A stretch of 32,535 nucleotides of DNA from Eubacterium sp. (GTDB lineage: Bacteria; Bacillota; Clostridia; Lachnospirales; Lachnospiraceae), in NCBI GenBank assembly GCA_017539165.1, contig JAFYHN010000062.1, positions 1 to 32,535 of the forward strand. The letters are read 5' to 3'. Both the position numbers and the translations under genes were made by a program. Numbering within the stretch: the stretch's first letter is position 1; each line of letters opens with the position of its first letter. Below the pieces are notes generated by a model. It ran no database searches, was not told where the DNA came from, and saw nothing but the letters and a program-made list of their open reading frames with translations. Positions 7,474 to 30,414 of the stretch are shown piece after piece.

Positions 7474-8184
7474 ATGGAATGGATATTATTATTTAATGGG
7501 ATATCACCATATCTGTATTTTTTTATAATGACAAAACTATATGAGTATGATTCGACTAAAAATCCGAATTTTAAAGTTTACATTATCGCGTTTATCATTC
7601 AATTGATAATAACTACAATTTTAAGTATTAATTCAAAGAATAAAAGACGACTTGCAAAAGTTACAATGATAAATAAATTAGTTCAGATTCCGTATTTTAT
7701 ATTTTTCTTTTTGTTTTCTATAATGGCTGTTATGGTTGGAATGGGATTAATGGGAATTGGCCTTATATTTATTCCATTCCTTATAGCTATAGATTTCGGG
7801 GTTTTCTTAAGTACAGTTATACCGGAAGAAGCTTGTACGATAAGACTCTACACGGAAAAACATATTACATTTGGTAGTTTTCTGTTTTACATTATTGGGA
7901 ATTTCATCTATGTTTTAGATATCATTCTTTCTGTTATGATATTTAAAGATTTTAAGCGCGGAGAAGAACGTAGTAATATGGCTGCATCGCAGATGAGTGG
8001 ACCTTATATGCAACCGAACGCACATTACGTTCCGCAGCCAACCCAACAGTTCAACAGCCAATATAATCCACAATATAATACGCAATATAATCCACAACCA
8101 AATCCTGATTATAATCAGCAAAACAGTCAACAGTATTATCAGTATAATTCGCAGAATGATCAAAATATGAATAATTTACAATAA
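7474..8184 (+). CDS. Multi-pass membrane protein with Q/N/Y/P-rich C-terminal tail, unknown function
   Basis: I do not recognise a family. The first 165 or so residues contain four or more hydrophobic segments: near residues 5-18, about 29-45, a long stretch around 70-115 that could cross twice, and about 128-155. The last 70 or so residues are low complexity, rich in Gln, Asn, Tyr and Pro, and include three back-to-back four-residue units QYNP/QYNT/QYNP at residues 196-207. The gene follows manA by 17 bp with an AGAGGAA site, so it is probably cotranscribed, and it ends at a strong terminator. The tail could be a disordered or adhesive segment; this is inference. Confidence 0.7.
   Translation: MEWILLFNGISPYLYFFIMTKLYEYDSTKNPNFKVYIIAFIIQLIITTILSINSKNKRRLAKVTMINKLVQIPYFIFFFLFSIMAVMVGMGLMGIGLIFIPFLIAIDFGVFLSTVIPEEACTIRLYTEKHITFGSFLFYIIGNFIYVLDIILSVMIFKDFKRGEERSNMAASQMSGPYMQPNAHYVPQPTQQFNSQYNPQYNTQYNPQPNPDYNQQNSQQYYQYNSQNDQNMNNLQ
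8059..8094 (+). repeat. Three tandem 12-bp in-frame repeats
   Basis: CAATATAATCCA, CAATATAATACG and CAATATAATCCA follow one another without gaps and encode QYNP, QYNT and QYNP in the membrane protein's tail. Such arrays can gain or lose units by slippage without changing frame. Confidence 0.75.
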
Positions 8185-8269: not shown

Positions 8270-9784
8270 CTAATCGCGTCTGAATAGATCTCTAGTATAT
8301 ACCTTTTCTTCAACATCATCAAGTGCAGAATCATAACGATTTGCAATTATGCATCCACACATCTTCTTAAAACGCTTGATATCATTAACAACTTTGCTTC
8401 CAAAGAATGTAGAACCATTCTCAAGGGTTGGCTCATATATAACAACTGTAGCGCCCTTAGCTTTGATTCTTTTCATGACACCCTGGATAGAAGACTGACG
8501 GAAGTTATCTGAATTAGACTTCATAGTCAGACGATAAACTCCGACAACTACATTCTTCTCCATATCGGACTTGTAATTGTTATCATCACTGTAGCTATAG
8601 TACTCAGCCATCTGAAGAACTCTATCTGCGATAAAGTCTTTTCTAGTTCTATTACTTTCAACGATAGCTGTCATCATGTTCTGAGGGACATCACTGTAGT
8701 TAGCAAGAAGCTGCTTTGTATCCTTAGGCAGGCAATATCCGCCGTAACCAAATGATGGATTATTGTAGTAGTCACCAACACGAGGATCAAGGCAAACACC
8801 TTTGATTATAGATGCTGTATCAAGTTCCTTAACCTCAGCATATGTATCAAGCTCGTTAAAGTATGAAACTCTCAGTGCAAGATATGTGTTTACGAATAAC
8901 TTTGTAGCCTCGGCTTCAGTATATCCCATGAAAAGCGTTTCAACAGGAGACTTTATTGCGCCCTGCTGCAGGAGTGAGGCAAATGTCATTGCAGCTTTAC
9001 GTGTTCCCTCATCACATCCAACGATGATTCTTGATGGGAAGAGATTATCATAGAGAGCTTTCGATTCACGAAGGAATTCAGGGCTGAAGATGATATTCTT
9101 TGCGTGATACTTTTCTCTGACATGCTCTGTATATCCAACAGGGATAGTTGACTTAATTATGATAGTAGGTTTATTCTTCTTTGTCTTTGTAGAATCCAGA
9201 ATGAGTTCGATAACAGACTCAACAGCTGAACAGTCAAAGAAGTTTTTCTTTGGATCATAGTTAGTAGGGGCAGCAATAATAATGAAATCAGCATTTTTAT
9301 ATGCGCTTGCTCCATCAGTAGTTGCAACAAGATTAAGCTGTCTCTTGCCTTCTTTAGCTTCAGCAAGATATTTTTCTATATAATCATCCTGGATAGGGGA
9401 TATATAATTATTTAACTTTTCAACTTTCTCTTCGATTATATCTACAGCAGTAACTTTGTTATGCTGTGAGAGAAGAACTGCAAGTGAGAGACCAACATAA
9501 CCTGTTCCTGCGACAGCGATCTTATATGACTTTGCTTCGTCAGAAGAGTTTTTATCATCAGATACATTTTCTTCTGCAATCATCATATCTGCATAATTGA
9601 AGTTAAGTGCTTCAGATAGAGCCTGTAGCTGATCTACTGATGGCGTATATTCACCTGCTTCAAGCTTACTGATAAGTGAACGGTTAATTCCAGTCATTTT
9701 TCCAAGTTCTGTTTGAGTTATCTTTGCTGCTTTTCTTTTAGAAGTAACAGTAGAAGATAAGATCTCAAGAGATAATTTTTTCAT
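8270..9784 (-). CDS. ugd: UDP-glucose 6-dehydrogenase fused to an N-terminal XRE-type HTH
   Basis: Oxidises UDP-glucose to UDP-glucuronate with two NAD+. Residues about 86-504 match the short E. coli-type Ugd throughout: GTGYVGLS (NAD loop, 93-98), [33 protein letters not shown] with catalytic Cys350, and the ending VYTRDLF. Ahead of this is an XRE/Cro-like helix-turn-helix (about residues 14-66: [22 protein letters not shown], then [15 protein letters not shown]), joined by an acidic linker (about 70-85). The frame is continuous, so this is a real fusion, and the normal enzyme length is about 390 aa. The ATG has AAAGGGG seven bases upstream. A strong promoter and two direct repeats lie in the leader, which suggests self-regulation. 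Enzyme call is very sure; DNA binding is inferred. Confidence 0.93.
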
Positions 9785-9793
9785 TGATAAACC

Positions 9794-9814
9794 CCTTTCG
9801 TATAACCTTTCGTA
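9794..9814 (-). promoter_or_regulatory. Two direct repeats in the ugd leader, candidate operator
   Basis: On the minus strand TACGAAAGG occurs twice (9806-9814 and 9794-9802) with a 12-bp period. Both copies lie just after the predicted transcription start, and the proximal one overlaps the ribosome-binding site of ugd. A repressor bound here would block transcription; the HTH of Ugd itself is the obvious candidate, by inference. Confidence 0.4.
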
Positions 9815-9831
9815 AATACTATATAGATTGG

Positions 9832-9859
9832 ATTATAACAAACCAAAACAAATAGTCAA
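9832..9859 (-). promoter_or_regulatory. Sigma-A-type promoter of ugd
   Basis: Read on the minus strand: TTGACT (-35, 9859-9854), a 16-bp spacer, then a perfect TATAAT (-10, 9837-9832). Transcription would begin near 9825, about 40 bases before the ATG at 9784. Confidence 0.72.
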
Positions 9860-9986
9860 GCAAAATGTTATTAATAAATGCATATTCATAACAATATGTA
9901 CGCTATTAATCAGAATTGTGTCACTATCAGTAACCATATCATTCCAAAAGTCGAAATATTAGATTTTGCACAAATAAAATTTTAGG

Positions 9987-10075: not shown

Positions 10076-11647
10076 ATGGGAAAAGTATATCTTCTTGATT
10101 GCACCTTAAGAGATGGCGGTTATGTAAATGACTGGCGGTTTGGAGAGGAAACAATCAAAGGATTTGGAAGAAAGATTGCAAATACCGGAATAGAAATGTA
10201 TGAGGTTGGATTCCTTAAGGGAGAAGAATATGATCCTGACAGATCTATATTCCCTGACATCCAGTCTATATCTGGAGTTATCACACCTAAGTTTGAAGGA
10301 ATGAAATATGTTGCTATGCTTGATATGAGTGCACCTATTCCTCTTGAGAGAATCACTCCTTTTGATGGAACTTCTATCGATGGTATCAGAATTATATTTA
10401 AAAAAGATAAGATAGACGAAGCTTATAAGTACTGTGAGCGAATTCAGGAACTTGGATACTTCATATCAGTAAACTTTGTTGGTACCGATCTTTATACAGA
10501 CAAAGAATTCATTGAAGGAATCGAACGTTTTAATAAACTTCATCCTTTTGCAATGTCTATTGTTGATACTTTTGGTCTCATAAAGAGAAAGCATTTCCTT
10601 CGTCTTGCCTATCTAGCAGACAGCAACATGGCGGATGGAACTGCACTTGCTTATCATGCTCATAACAATCTTCAGCAGGCATTTGGTAATGCCGAAGCTC
10701 TCGTGGAAATGAATCTGAAACGTGACCTTATCATAGATGCATGTGTATTCGGTATGGGCCGTGGTGCCGGCAATCTTAACCTCGAGCTTTTTGCTGAATA
10801 TATGAATGAGAATTATGATACACATTATAAGATCAAGCCCATGCTTGAGATAATGGATGAATATCTTAATGACATTTATAGGACAAAATTCTGGGGATAT
10901 TCACTTCCTCTATATCTTTCAGCAACAAATAATTCACATCCAAATTATGCAATATATCTTGCTGAGAAGAATACACTTACTGTAAAAGCTTTCGATGAAC
11001 TGCTTCAGAGTATTCCTGATGAAGATAAGGCTAAGTTCTCCAAGGAGAAAGCAGAACAGTACTATAGAAGTTATCAGGAAAACTATATTAATGACAGCGA
11101 TGTTGTAAATACTCTTTCTGAACAGTTGGCTGACAAGAATGTTCTTGTTCTGGCACCTGGAAAAACACTTTCATCACATGCTGATGCTATCAGGAACAAA
11201 ATAGATGATAATACGATTGTTATATCTGCTAACTTTATTGCTAGTGACTTTAATCCTGATTTTGTTTTTAGTAGCAACATGAGACGTTACATAAAGATAC
11301 AAGGCAAAACTGATGCACGTTGTATCATCACATCAAACATGAAAGAAGCTACTTCTTATGATGTAATGGTCAACTTCGCAAGTTATGCTTCTAAATATTC
11401 TGAAATCATTGACAATTCGGTGCTCATGCTGCTTAAACTTCTTGCTTCTGCAGGTGTTAAGAATGTAATGATAGCCGGAATGGATGGATATACTGAAAGT
11501 CAGGATATCGCTTACTTCAGCAGTGAGCTTCAGTTTGATTTTTCTAAGGAAGCAAATGAGAGAAATGCTCTTATCTCGAAAGAGCTTATAAATATTAGAA
11601 AGACGATCAACTTCGAATTTATTACACCAACTATTTACGACATTTAA
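10076..11647 (+). CDS. DRE-TIM metallolyase (HMGL-like aldolase) with C-terminal Rossmann-like domain
   Basis: The first 280 or so residues are a TIM-barrel aldolase of the HMGL / 4-hydroxy-2-oxovalerate aldolase group. Residues 7-15, LDCTLRDGG, supply the catalytic Arg12 and metal-binding Asp13, and AYHAHNNLQQ supplies the metal-binding His194 and His196. VFGMGRGAGNLNLE is typical of the barrel's end. From about residue 352 a second domain starts with NVLVLAPGKTLSSHADAIR, a glycine-containing phosphate-loop-like start seen in Rossmann folds, and runs to the C-terminus. There is no partner acylating dehydrogenase, so this is not simply the meta-cleavage enzyme. Such two-domain aldolases may serve polysaccharide or secondary sugar metabolism, and the divergent ugd fits that. 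Substrate unknown. mutS begins 14 bp later. Confidence 0.75.
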   Translation: MGKVYLLDCTLRDGGYVNDWRFGEETIKGFGRKIANTGIEMYEVGFLKGEEYDPDRSIFPDIQSISGVITPKFEGMKYVAMLDMSAPIPLERITPFDGTSIDGIRIIFKKDKIDEAYKYCERIQELGYFISVNFVGTDLYTDKEFIEGIERFNKLHPFAMSIVDTFGLIKRKHFLRLAYLADSNMADGTALAYHAHNNLQQAFGNAEALVEMNLKRDLIIDACVFGMGRGAGNLNLELFAEYMNENYDTHYKIKPMLEIMDEYLNDIYRTKFWGYSLPLYLSATNNSHPNYAIYLAEKNTLTVKAFDELLQSIPDEDKAKFSKEKAEQYYRSYQENYINDSDVVNTLSEQLADKNVLVLAPGKTLSSHADAIRNKIDDNTIVISANFIASDFNPDFVFSSNMRRYIKIQGKTDARCIITSNMKEATSYDVMVNFASYASKYSEIIDNSVLMLLKLLASAGVKNVMIAGMDGYTESQDIAYFSSELQFDFSKEANERNALISKELINIRKTINFEFITPTIYDI

Positions 11648-29928: not shown

Positions 29929-30414
29929 ATGTTTAGAAAATATATACTGCCAATCATTCTTATCTTAATACTTGCGGCAGTCGATCAATATACTAAATAT
30001 CTTGTTATTCAGAACATAGAATTGAATTCTGAGATTCCACTTCTCGGAGATGTTCTTGTTCTCGGTCATATTCAAAATAAGGGTGCAGCCTGGGGGAGTC
30101 TCGCAGGAAAGACTGTTTTGTTACTGATAATAACAGTAGTTGTTGCAATCTTACTTTGTCGTTTATATCTCAAGATAATAAATAATGATAAATTCAAAAT
30201 AGTTAGATACTGTTTCATATTTGTTCTTGGAGGTGCTATCGGTAACTTGATAGATCGAGTGAGACTTGGATATGTAACAGATTTTATCTATTTCAAGATT
30301 ATAAACTTTCCGCTTTTTAACTTTGCTGACATCTGTGTGACTGTCAGTATGTTTACACTTATTATTCTTTTTGTATTCAAGTACAAAACAGAAGAGCTTG
30401 AGGAATTATTTTAA
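29929..30414 (+). CDS. lspA: Lipoprotein signal peptidase (signal peptidase II)
   Basis: Cuts the signal peptide from diacylglyceryl-modified prolipoproteins in the membrane. Four transmembrane helices are visible. Conserved boxes are AAVDQYTKYLV, IQNKGAAWG, GGAIGNLIDRVRLGYVTDFI with catalytic Asp118, and FNFADICVTV with catalytic Asp134. 161 aa is standard. AAAAGGA precedes the start. The stop overlaps the rluD start by one base (TAATG). Confidence 0.96.
   Translation: MFRKYILPIILILILAAVDQYTKYLVIQNIELNSEIPLLGDVLVLGHIQNKGAAWGSLAGKTVLLLIITVVVAILLCRLYLKIINNDKFKIVRYCFIFVLGGAIGNLIDRVRLGYVTDFIYFKIINFPLFNFADICVTVSMFTLIILFVFKYKTEELEELF

Follow-up and report, generated by a model that had tools for sequence, protein, structure and literature searches.

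The gene at positions 8270-9784 of the window (the whole 32,535-nt stretch of Eubacterium sp. DNA that was analysed) raises the question of whether an enzyme of nucleotide-sugar metabolism can also regulate its own expression. UDP-glucose dehydrogenase (Ugd) supplies UDP-glucuronate for polysaccharides. Here it is preceded by a helix-turn-helix (HTH) of the XRE type, and a preliminary description of the locus proposed that the enzyme may repress its own gene, as a "trigger enzyme", by binding two direct repeats in its leader, and that it could sense UDP-glucose, UDP-glucuronate or NAD(H). The reading favored here, with a probability of about 0.77 on sequence evidence, is that the gene encodes an active Ugd which is at the same time a DNA-binding autoregulator, acting on a 17-bp palindrome in its own leader. 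The parts of the gene are as follows.

8270..9784, minus strand: HTH-Ugd fusion gene, 504 amino acids, ATG at 9784, stop codon ending at 8270
9599..9739, minus strand: XRE-type HTH, residues 16-62, recognition helix at about 34-42 (Pfam HTH_3, predicted helices, invariant residues)
8273..9523, minus strand: UDP-glucose dehydrogenase part, residues 88-504, catalytic Cys351 (Pfam, structures, alignment)

The fusion is real. The frame is unbroken over 8270-9784, with no stop codon upstream of the ATG as far as 9814. HTH_3 matched residues 16-62 (E 1.1e-12, 48.2 bits against a gathering score of 23), and three UDPG_MGDP_dh domains (N-terminal, central and C-terminal) were found between residues 88 and 493, all above their gathering scores, so the joining of an HTH to a complete Ugd in one frame was described correctly. 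The catalytic cysteine is also present, numbered 351 rather than 350 when counted from the ATG at 9784. Among NCBIfam models, the protein passed the cut-off of TIGR03026 (303.3 vs 189.8 bits), which places it in the nucleotide sugar dehydrogenase subfamily. It reached 511.9 bits with PRK15057, the UDP-glucose 6-dehydrogenase equivalog, below the cut-off of 757, and therefore it is not filed under that equivalog. By sequence comparison, the solved structures nearest to the enzyme part were 3phl and 1dli, both Ugd and, as we assume for the organism, of Klebsiella type. For the HTH, the top-scoring solved structure by sequence was the P22 C2 repressor (2r1j, E 2.2e-5), which binds palindromic operators as a dimer. 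Besides HTH-Ugd itself, no second Ugd was found in the window's genome at E ≤ 0.001; three other matches were weak (22-28% identity) and started in the HTH.

Species genomes were scanned for relatives, of which there were at least 580. The best 80 were kept as loci and are hence selected for the fusion; all of them span the HTH and the Ugd part, with 70-81% identity over the best segment. Most of their host records are named Lachnospiraceae, Ruminococcus or unclassified Clostridia, and the hosts of HTH-Ugd are gut and rumen bacteria. In the tree, HTH-Ugd genes from three records, whose titles name Hydrogenedentes, Planctomycetaceae and Erysipelothrix rhusiopathiae, fall within the clostridial ones; these records are perhaps mislabelled bins.

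Constraint was found on both halves of the protein. E236, K295, N299, C351 and D355 were invariant in 81/81 fused proteins (the window's and the best 80 of at least 580 relatives), and E240 in 50/50 of the fused homologues in a further alignment (A1). The catalytic roles of these six residues are presumed from the S. pyogenes enzyme, and their retention suggests that the Ugd part is apparently an active enzyme. The preliminary description had named erosion of the HTH recognition residues as a point to look for in homologues; none was seen, R17, Q24, R35, E42, P48, Q52 and L60 being invariant in the same 81/81 proteins, the window's included. The linker between HTH and Ugd is the most variable stretch. 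In an AlphaFold2 model built from 50 fused homologues (mean pLDDT 75.5, pTM 0.59), the HTH was modelled confidently, with a block pLDDT of 88-97 across residues 1-70 and high-confidence helices at 6-19, 24-31, 35-42 (the third) and 50-60. The linker was disordered at 74-83, and confidence in the Ugd part was mixed, being poor at 238-250 and 323-362. The model thus supports the HTH fold, but not the detail of the active site.

In the leader of the window's gene, the following elements were located.

9854..9859, minus strand: -35 box TTGACT (promoter match)
9832..9837, minus strand: -10 box TATAAT (promoter match)
9806..9814, minus strand: TACGAAAGG, copy 1, not conserved
9794..9802, minus strand: TACGAAAGG, copy 2, overlapping the likely Shine-Dalgarno sequence GAAAGGGG

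TTGACT-16-TATAAT is the best promoter match of the region (11/12, with TG ahead of the second hexamer), in agreement with the strong promoter reported initially. The two copies of TACGAAAGG also exist, with an offset of 12 bp, and a 9-mer direct repeat is uncommon in such a leader, arising in 164 of 20,000 dinucleotide shuffles of its 60 nt. Some 9-mer repeat of this kind was present in three of the leaders tested, those of the window, L052 and L079. Conservation beside homologous fusions, the check proposed together with the repeats, gave a negative result: TACGAAAGG occurs in the last 80 nt of 0/80 other fused leaders (best 80 of at least 580), with one mismatch allowed. As an operator these repeats were rejected, for this reason and with copy 2 as a likely Shine-Dalgarno sequence.

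On reading the leaders of the relatives, a different element was noticed, a 17-bp palindrome of the form TGTYRYTnnnARYRACA. With its 3-nt center, it was present in 38/81 leaders (the window and the best 80 of at least 580) vs 0.35 expected in shuffles, while other spacers from 0 to 8 nt gave palindromes in only 0-1 leaders each; this test required TGT...ACA and at least 6/7 paired arm positions, the TGT/ACA frame having been picked after viewing the leaders. A weight matrix, trained on the same leaders as those counted, gave 116 sites of at least 13 bits in 35.9 kb of leaders vs 13 in the remaining 657 kb. At least one such site was present in 67/81 leaders, with two in 27 and three in 11. Ruminococcus albus 8 and Lachnospiraceae bacterium C10 are examples of hosts whose operators are strong. 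When whole clusters were held out and leaders shorter than 200 nt left out, sites of at least 13 bits were found in 62/80 fused leaders, a set selected for the fusion as noted above, vs 0/46 leaders of unfused Ugd, and 37/50 clusters had at least one site-bearing leader. Within the sample studied, the operator is thus restricted to fused genes. At 13 bits and with the same length limit, the set used for the tree gave 66/83 fused vs 0/45 unfused leaders. Two Ruminococcus genes (L058 and L065) have an operator-like site at +424 inside the fused gene (22.0 and 16.3 bits), which may reflect coding conservation.

The weight of this contrast depends on ancestry and on gene context. The Ugd-domain tree comprised 130 rows, 84 fused and 46 unfused, with L014 and L215 left out. 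One starred branch (SH-aLRT 97) holds 82 fused genes and a single unfused one, L091; the fused L149 and L150 fall outside it. The fused/unfused label required 4 changes on the tree vs 37.9 in shuffles, two of them forced by starred branches. L091 sits within the fused clade, where inner branches are weakly supported, and its leader does not contain the family operator; judging from sequence, it probably lost its HTH, and apparently the operator as well. Only two tree-independent pairs match fusion with operator (0.9 the same way), so the 62-vs-0 contrast represents few independent events. In addition, a position within an operon is commoner among unfused genes, whose upstream gap has a median of 29.5 nt vs 251 nt for fused genes, and gene context therefore explains part of the difference. 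Among 391 genomes sampled from the class, a close Ugd (E ≤ 1e-60) was present in 84, and in only 6 of those, the window's own included, did the match start at residue 1. From this sample, 19/71 loci were unrecognised by motif and left out, the fused L176 among them, and L177, which is not fused, was excluded from the fused counts.

An alternative is that the palindromes are the operator of a separate regulator, the fused HTH doing something else or nothing. In its favor, 17/83 fused leaders have no site of at least 13 bits, and sites of at least 12 bits are absent from three of the four recognised fused genes of the class sample (L147, L149 and L150). These three genes, together with L064 and L036, are fused genes without the family palindrome, and may use another operator. 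A separate regulator is at odds with the placement of the sites before fused genes and before 0/46 unfused ones. Nor are the sites in excess in other parts of the genomes. In 12 genomes picked for strong operators, with leader matches assigned by coordinates, the exact pattern gave 37 matches, of which 20 fell in HTH-ugd leaders; the other 17 were no excess over the 24 of a reversed-pattern control. Similarly, with up to one mismatch, the window's genome had 60 matches vs 54 in the control; its four exact matches all fall within ORFs (on C30, C70 and C75, and at 30119-30135 of the window, in ORF 29929-30414). A genome-wide regulon was rejected for the pattern tested, weaker or clade-specific sites falling outside this test.

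Covariation between operator and HTH also speaks against a separate regulator. Mutual information z-scores were computed for 72 HTH columns over 66 leaders, and residue 36, in the recognition helix, ranked first for operator base 4 and for base 5. The next ranks were columns 34, 38 and 39 for base 4, and columns 38, 39, 28 (outside the helix) and 34 for base 5. Part of the signal is ancestry, since columns outside the helix are the ones that covary with base 6, and one such column, 28, comes fourth for base 5. In the 54 leaders where a majority base could be called, base 5 was G in 33/35 with S36 vs 6/19 without it. Among the comparisons listed, tree-independent pairs for residue 36 point in the same direction, too few for significance; for base 4, 3.5 of 5 pairs were with and 0.0 against (median p 0.25). 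Taken with the counts above, a separate regulator is improbable. One genome carries two HTH-Ugd paralogues (L065 and L066) whose recognition helices differ (NRTMFTRLE and NRSIISRLE), and whose operators differ too (TGTCAC and TGTTGC type).

The position of the sites was compared with predicted promoters, assigned by a permissive rule that 78/81 leaders pass. The proximal site centers at +17 to +44 in 54/55 cases (median +31), with one at +94. Distal entries (n = 51) include 20 at -100 to -104, 10 at -109 to -114 and 6 at -134 to -137. The proximal-to-distal spacing is 126-133 bp in 18/32 loci, and nine site pairs are spaced 33 or 36 bp apart. Distal sites as serving a divergent neighbor were rejected, since they are present with either orientation: in leaders with two or three sites, the upstream ORF is co-directional in 20 and divergent in 17. 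Helical phasing is not claimed, the Rayleigh p of 0.005 for the 32 loci rising to 0.43 when only the 17 distinct spacings are counted, and looping is therefore only a suggestion. The layout resembles that of repressors with main and auxiliary operators, such as gal.

If the palindrome were an RNA hairpin of the 5' leader, acting in translation or attenuation control and not as a DNA operator, it would be expected within the predicted transcript. The proximal copy is indeed there, a short way upstream of the Shine-Dalgarno sequence, and could form a 7-bp stem. Against this, 84/112 sites contain one or more inner pairs (positions 4-6) that are not Watson-Crick, G-U among them, although the consensus is retained in both halves, and the distal copies are upstream of the predicted promoter. 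An RNA hairpin is thus very improbable, and the palindrome is best read as the putative DNA operator of the fused protein.

In the window itself, the case is weaker. Two further elements were found upstream of the promoter.

9919..9935, minus strand: GGTTACTGATAGTGACA, probable distal operator, the single copy of the palindrome that could be recognised in the window leader
9866..9893, minus strand: TGTTAT-N16-ATAACA, half-site-like arms, read from the sequence

GGTTACTGATAGTGACA scored 14.5 bits with the full matrix, 12.7 bits with its own cluster held out and 11.3 bits with a matrix made without the window (shuffle p 0.0028). Nine sites as strong as this one, itself included, occur in the 32.5 kb of the window, and hence GGTTACTGATAGTGACA alone is suggestive only. 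No proximal operator was recognisable in the window leader, and the TACGAAAGG repeats lie near that place. The arms of TGTTAT-N16-ATAACA, just upstream of the -35 box, are separated by 11 bp (one helical turn) more than those of the family operator.

These values could mean that regulation has decayed in the window's species, with the operator largely lost and the fused HTH left as a relic, and in the 250-nt leader of the nearest relative, L077, no site exceeded 6.8 bits. Against such decay, the window protein retains all seven family-invariant HTH residues, GGTTACTGATAGTGACA is placed where a distal operator is expected, with the shuffle probability given above, and AT-rich variants of the palindrome in its kin L005, L006 and L009 indicate that sites may have shifted instead. 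Because of these variants, operator divergence in the window's branch is plausible, and decay is considered unlikely. Autoregulation in the window, with one degenerate distal site left, is probable from the sequence, though less firmly supported than for the family. The original proposal that the enzyme may regulate its own gene is well supported for the family through the 17-bp palindrome, and not through TACGAAAGG.

The neighboring genes give an indication of what would be controlled. In the window, the next gene downstream (7474-8184, plus strand) is convergent, and consequently the HTH-Ugd gene stands alone; this ORF is membrane-protein-like, its C-terminal tail is rich in Q, N and Y, and it matched no Pfam family. 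The divergent neighbor (10076-11647, plus strand) is HMGL-like in its N-terminal domain, and its C-terminal half matched nothing in Pfam. GGTTACTGATAGTGACA is situated between this gene and HTH-Ugd, and could affect both. In the relatives, a gene of one of three kinds directly follows, within 160 nt, in 48/80 loci (best 80 of at least 580; for example L005, L010 and L013): an NAD-dependent epimerase in 28, a galactokinase-like GHMP kinase in 11 and a second, HTH-less Ugd in 9, counts in which some contigs end early and some genes escape the motifs used. Pfam supports epimerase, GHMP kinase, Ugd and nucleotidyltransferase in one example each, and none of these examples reached an NCBIfam equivalog cut-off. 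Judging from motifs, the epimerase is presumably a UDP-glucuronate 4-epimerase and the GHMP kinase a galacturonokinase. The downstream genes probably form, together with HTH-Ugd, an operon for UDP-uronate supply; if the identities are right, this operon, headed by the repressor, would serve UDP-galacturonate synthesis and salvage. In the window's genome, no more than distant matches were found for the epimerase (30% identity) and the kinase (25% identity).

For the family, an apparently intact active site, a conserved HTH and an operator by the gene's own start support the trigger-enzyme design of the preliminary description. In the mechanism proposed, a Ugd dimer would display two XRE heads on flexible linkers, which would bind TGTYRYTnnnARYRACA in the gene's own leader. 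Protein bound at the main operator near +30 would block transcription, and auxiliary operators are placed some 130 and 163 bp upstream of it. The fused protein would probably repress its own promoter, and in many relatives it would also repress the UDP-uronate supply operon that follows. With a linker that varies and is probably flexible, any ligand would have to act through dimer geometry or oligomer state.

Whether a ligand is involved at all separates two versions of this mechanism. HTH-Ugd may be a simple concentration-dependent autorepressor that senses no metabolite, its enzyme domain only supplying the dimer. The variable linker, disordered in the model, argues against rigid coupling between active site and HTH, and no pointer to a ligand appears in the data. 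Indirect points against it are that it would be odd for such a device to have its head fused to Ugd when a free-standing repressor would do, and that the closest parallels, PutA (PMC5293562) and NadR (PMC12421817), sense ligands. Simple autorepression is given close to an even chance. More tentatively, HTH-Ugd could be a metabolite-sensing autorepressor of the UDP-uronic-acid pool, whose oligomer would bridge operators near +30 and -103 (and -136). Its conformation, dependent on UDP-sugars or NAD(H), would then set how far looping represses an operon that makes and salvages UDP-glucuronate and UDP-galacturonate.

In a literature search of titles and the beginnings of abstracts, with few subscription journals covered, no earlier description of an HTH-Ugd fusion was found, which leaves its absence unproven. 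If the reading is true, a nucleotide-sugar dehydrogenase joins the enzymes that bear their own DNA-binding domain, and the one-protein enzyme-repressor is a compact candidate sensor of the UDP-glucuronate pool. The predicted operator, specificity residue and target make the trigger-enzyme idea directly testable, with the unfused relative L091, its head and operator seemingly lost, as a natural comparison.

Among known systems, the closest in kind are PutA and NadR, from which HTH-Ugd differs in enzyme, operator and its private target. Stand-alone Ugd (3phl, 1dli; TIGR03026) has the enzyme family and the catalytic residues in common with the fusion, but it has no HTH, and the palindromic operator was present in 0/46 of those sampled in Clostridia. 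The P22 C2 repressor is alike in its HTH by sequence, but is a phage repressor without an enzyme domain. BzdR, according to its abstract, links an N-terminal DNA-binding domain to a shikimate kinase-like domain whose enzymatic activity is lost (PMC3602430); it shares with HTH-Ugd the XRE type and an enzyme-derived domain, whereas HTH-Ugd keeps the Ugd active-site residues. The trifunctional proline utilisation A protein, PutA, shares the design of an enzyme with a DNA-binding domain (PMC5293562), but it is a flavoenzyme of a different pathway with a ribbon-helix-helix in place of the XRE HTH. NadR of Enterobacterales combines an N-terminal HTH with enzymatic domains and represses pathway genes (PMC12421817, PMC7221760). 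HTH-Ugd likewise has an N-terminal HTH joined to an enzyme, and differs in being a nucleotide-sugar dehydrogenase whose predicted target is only its own gene or operon.
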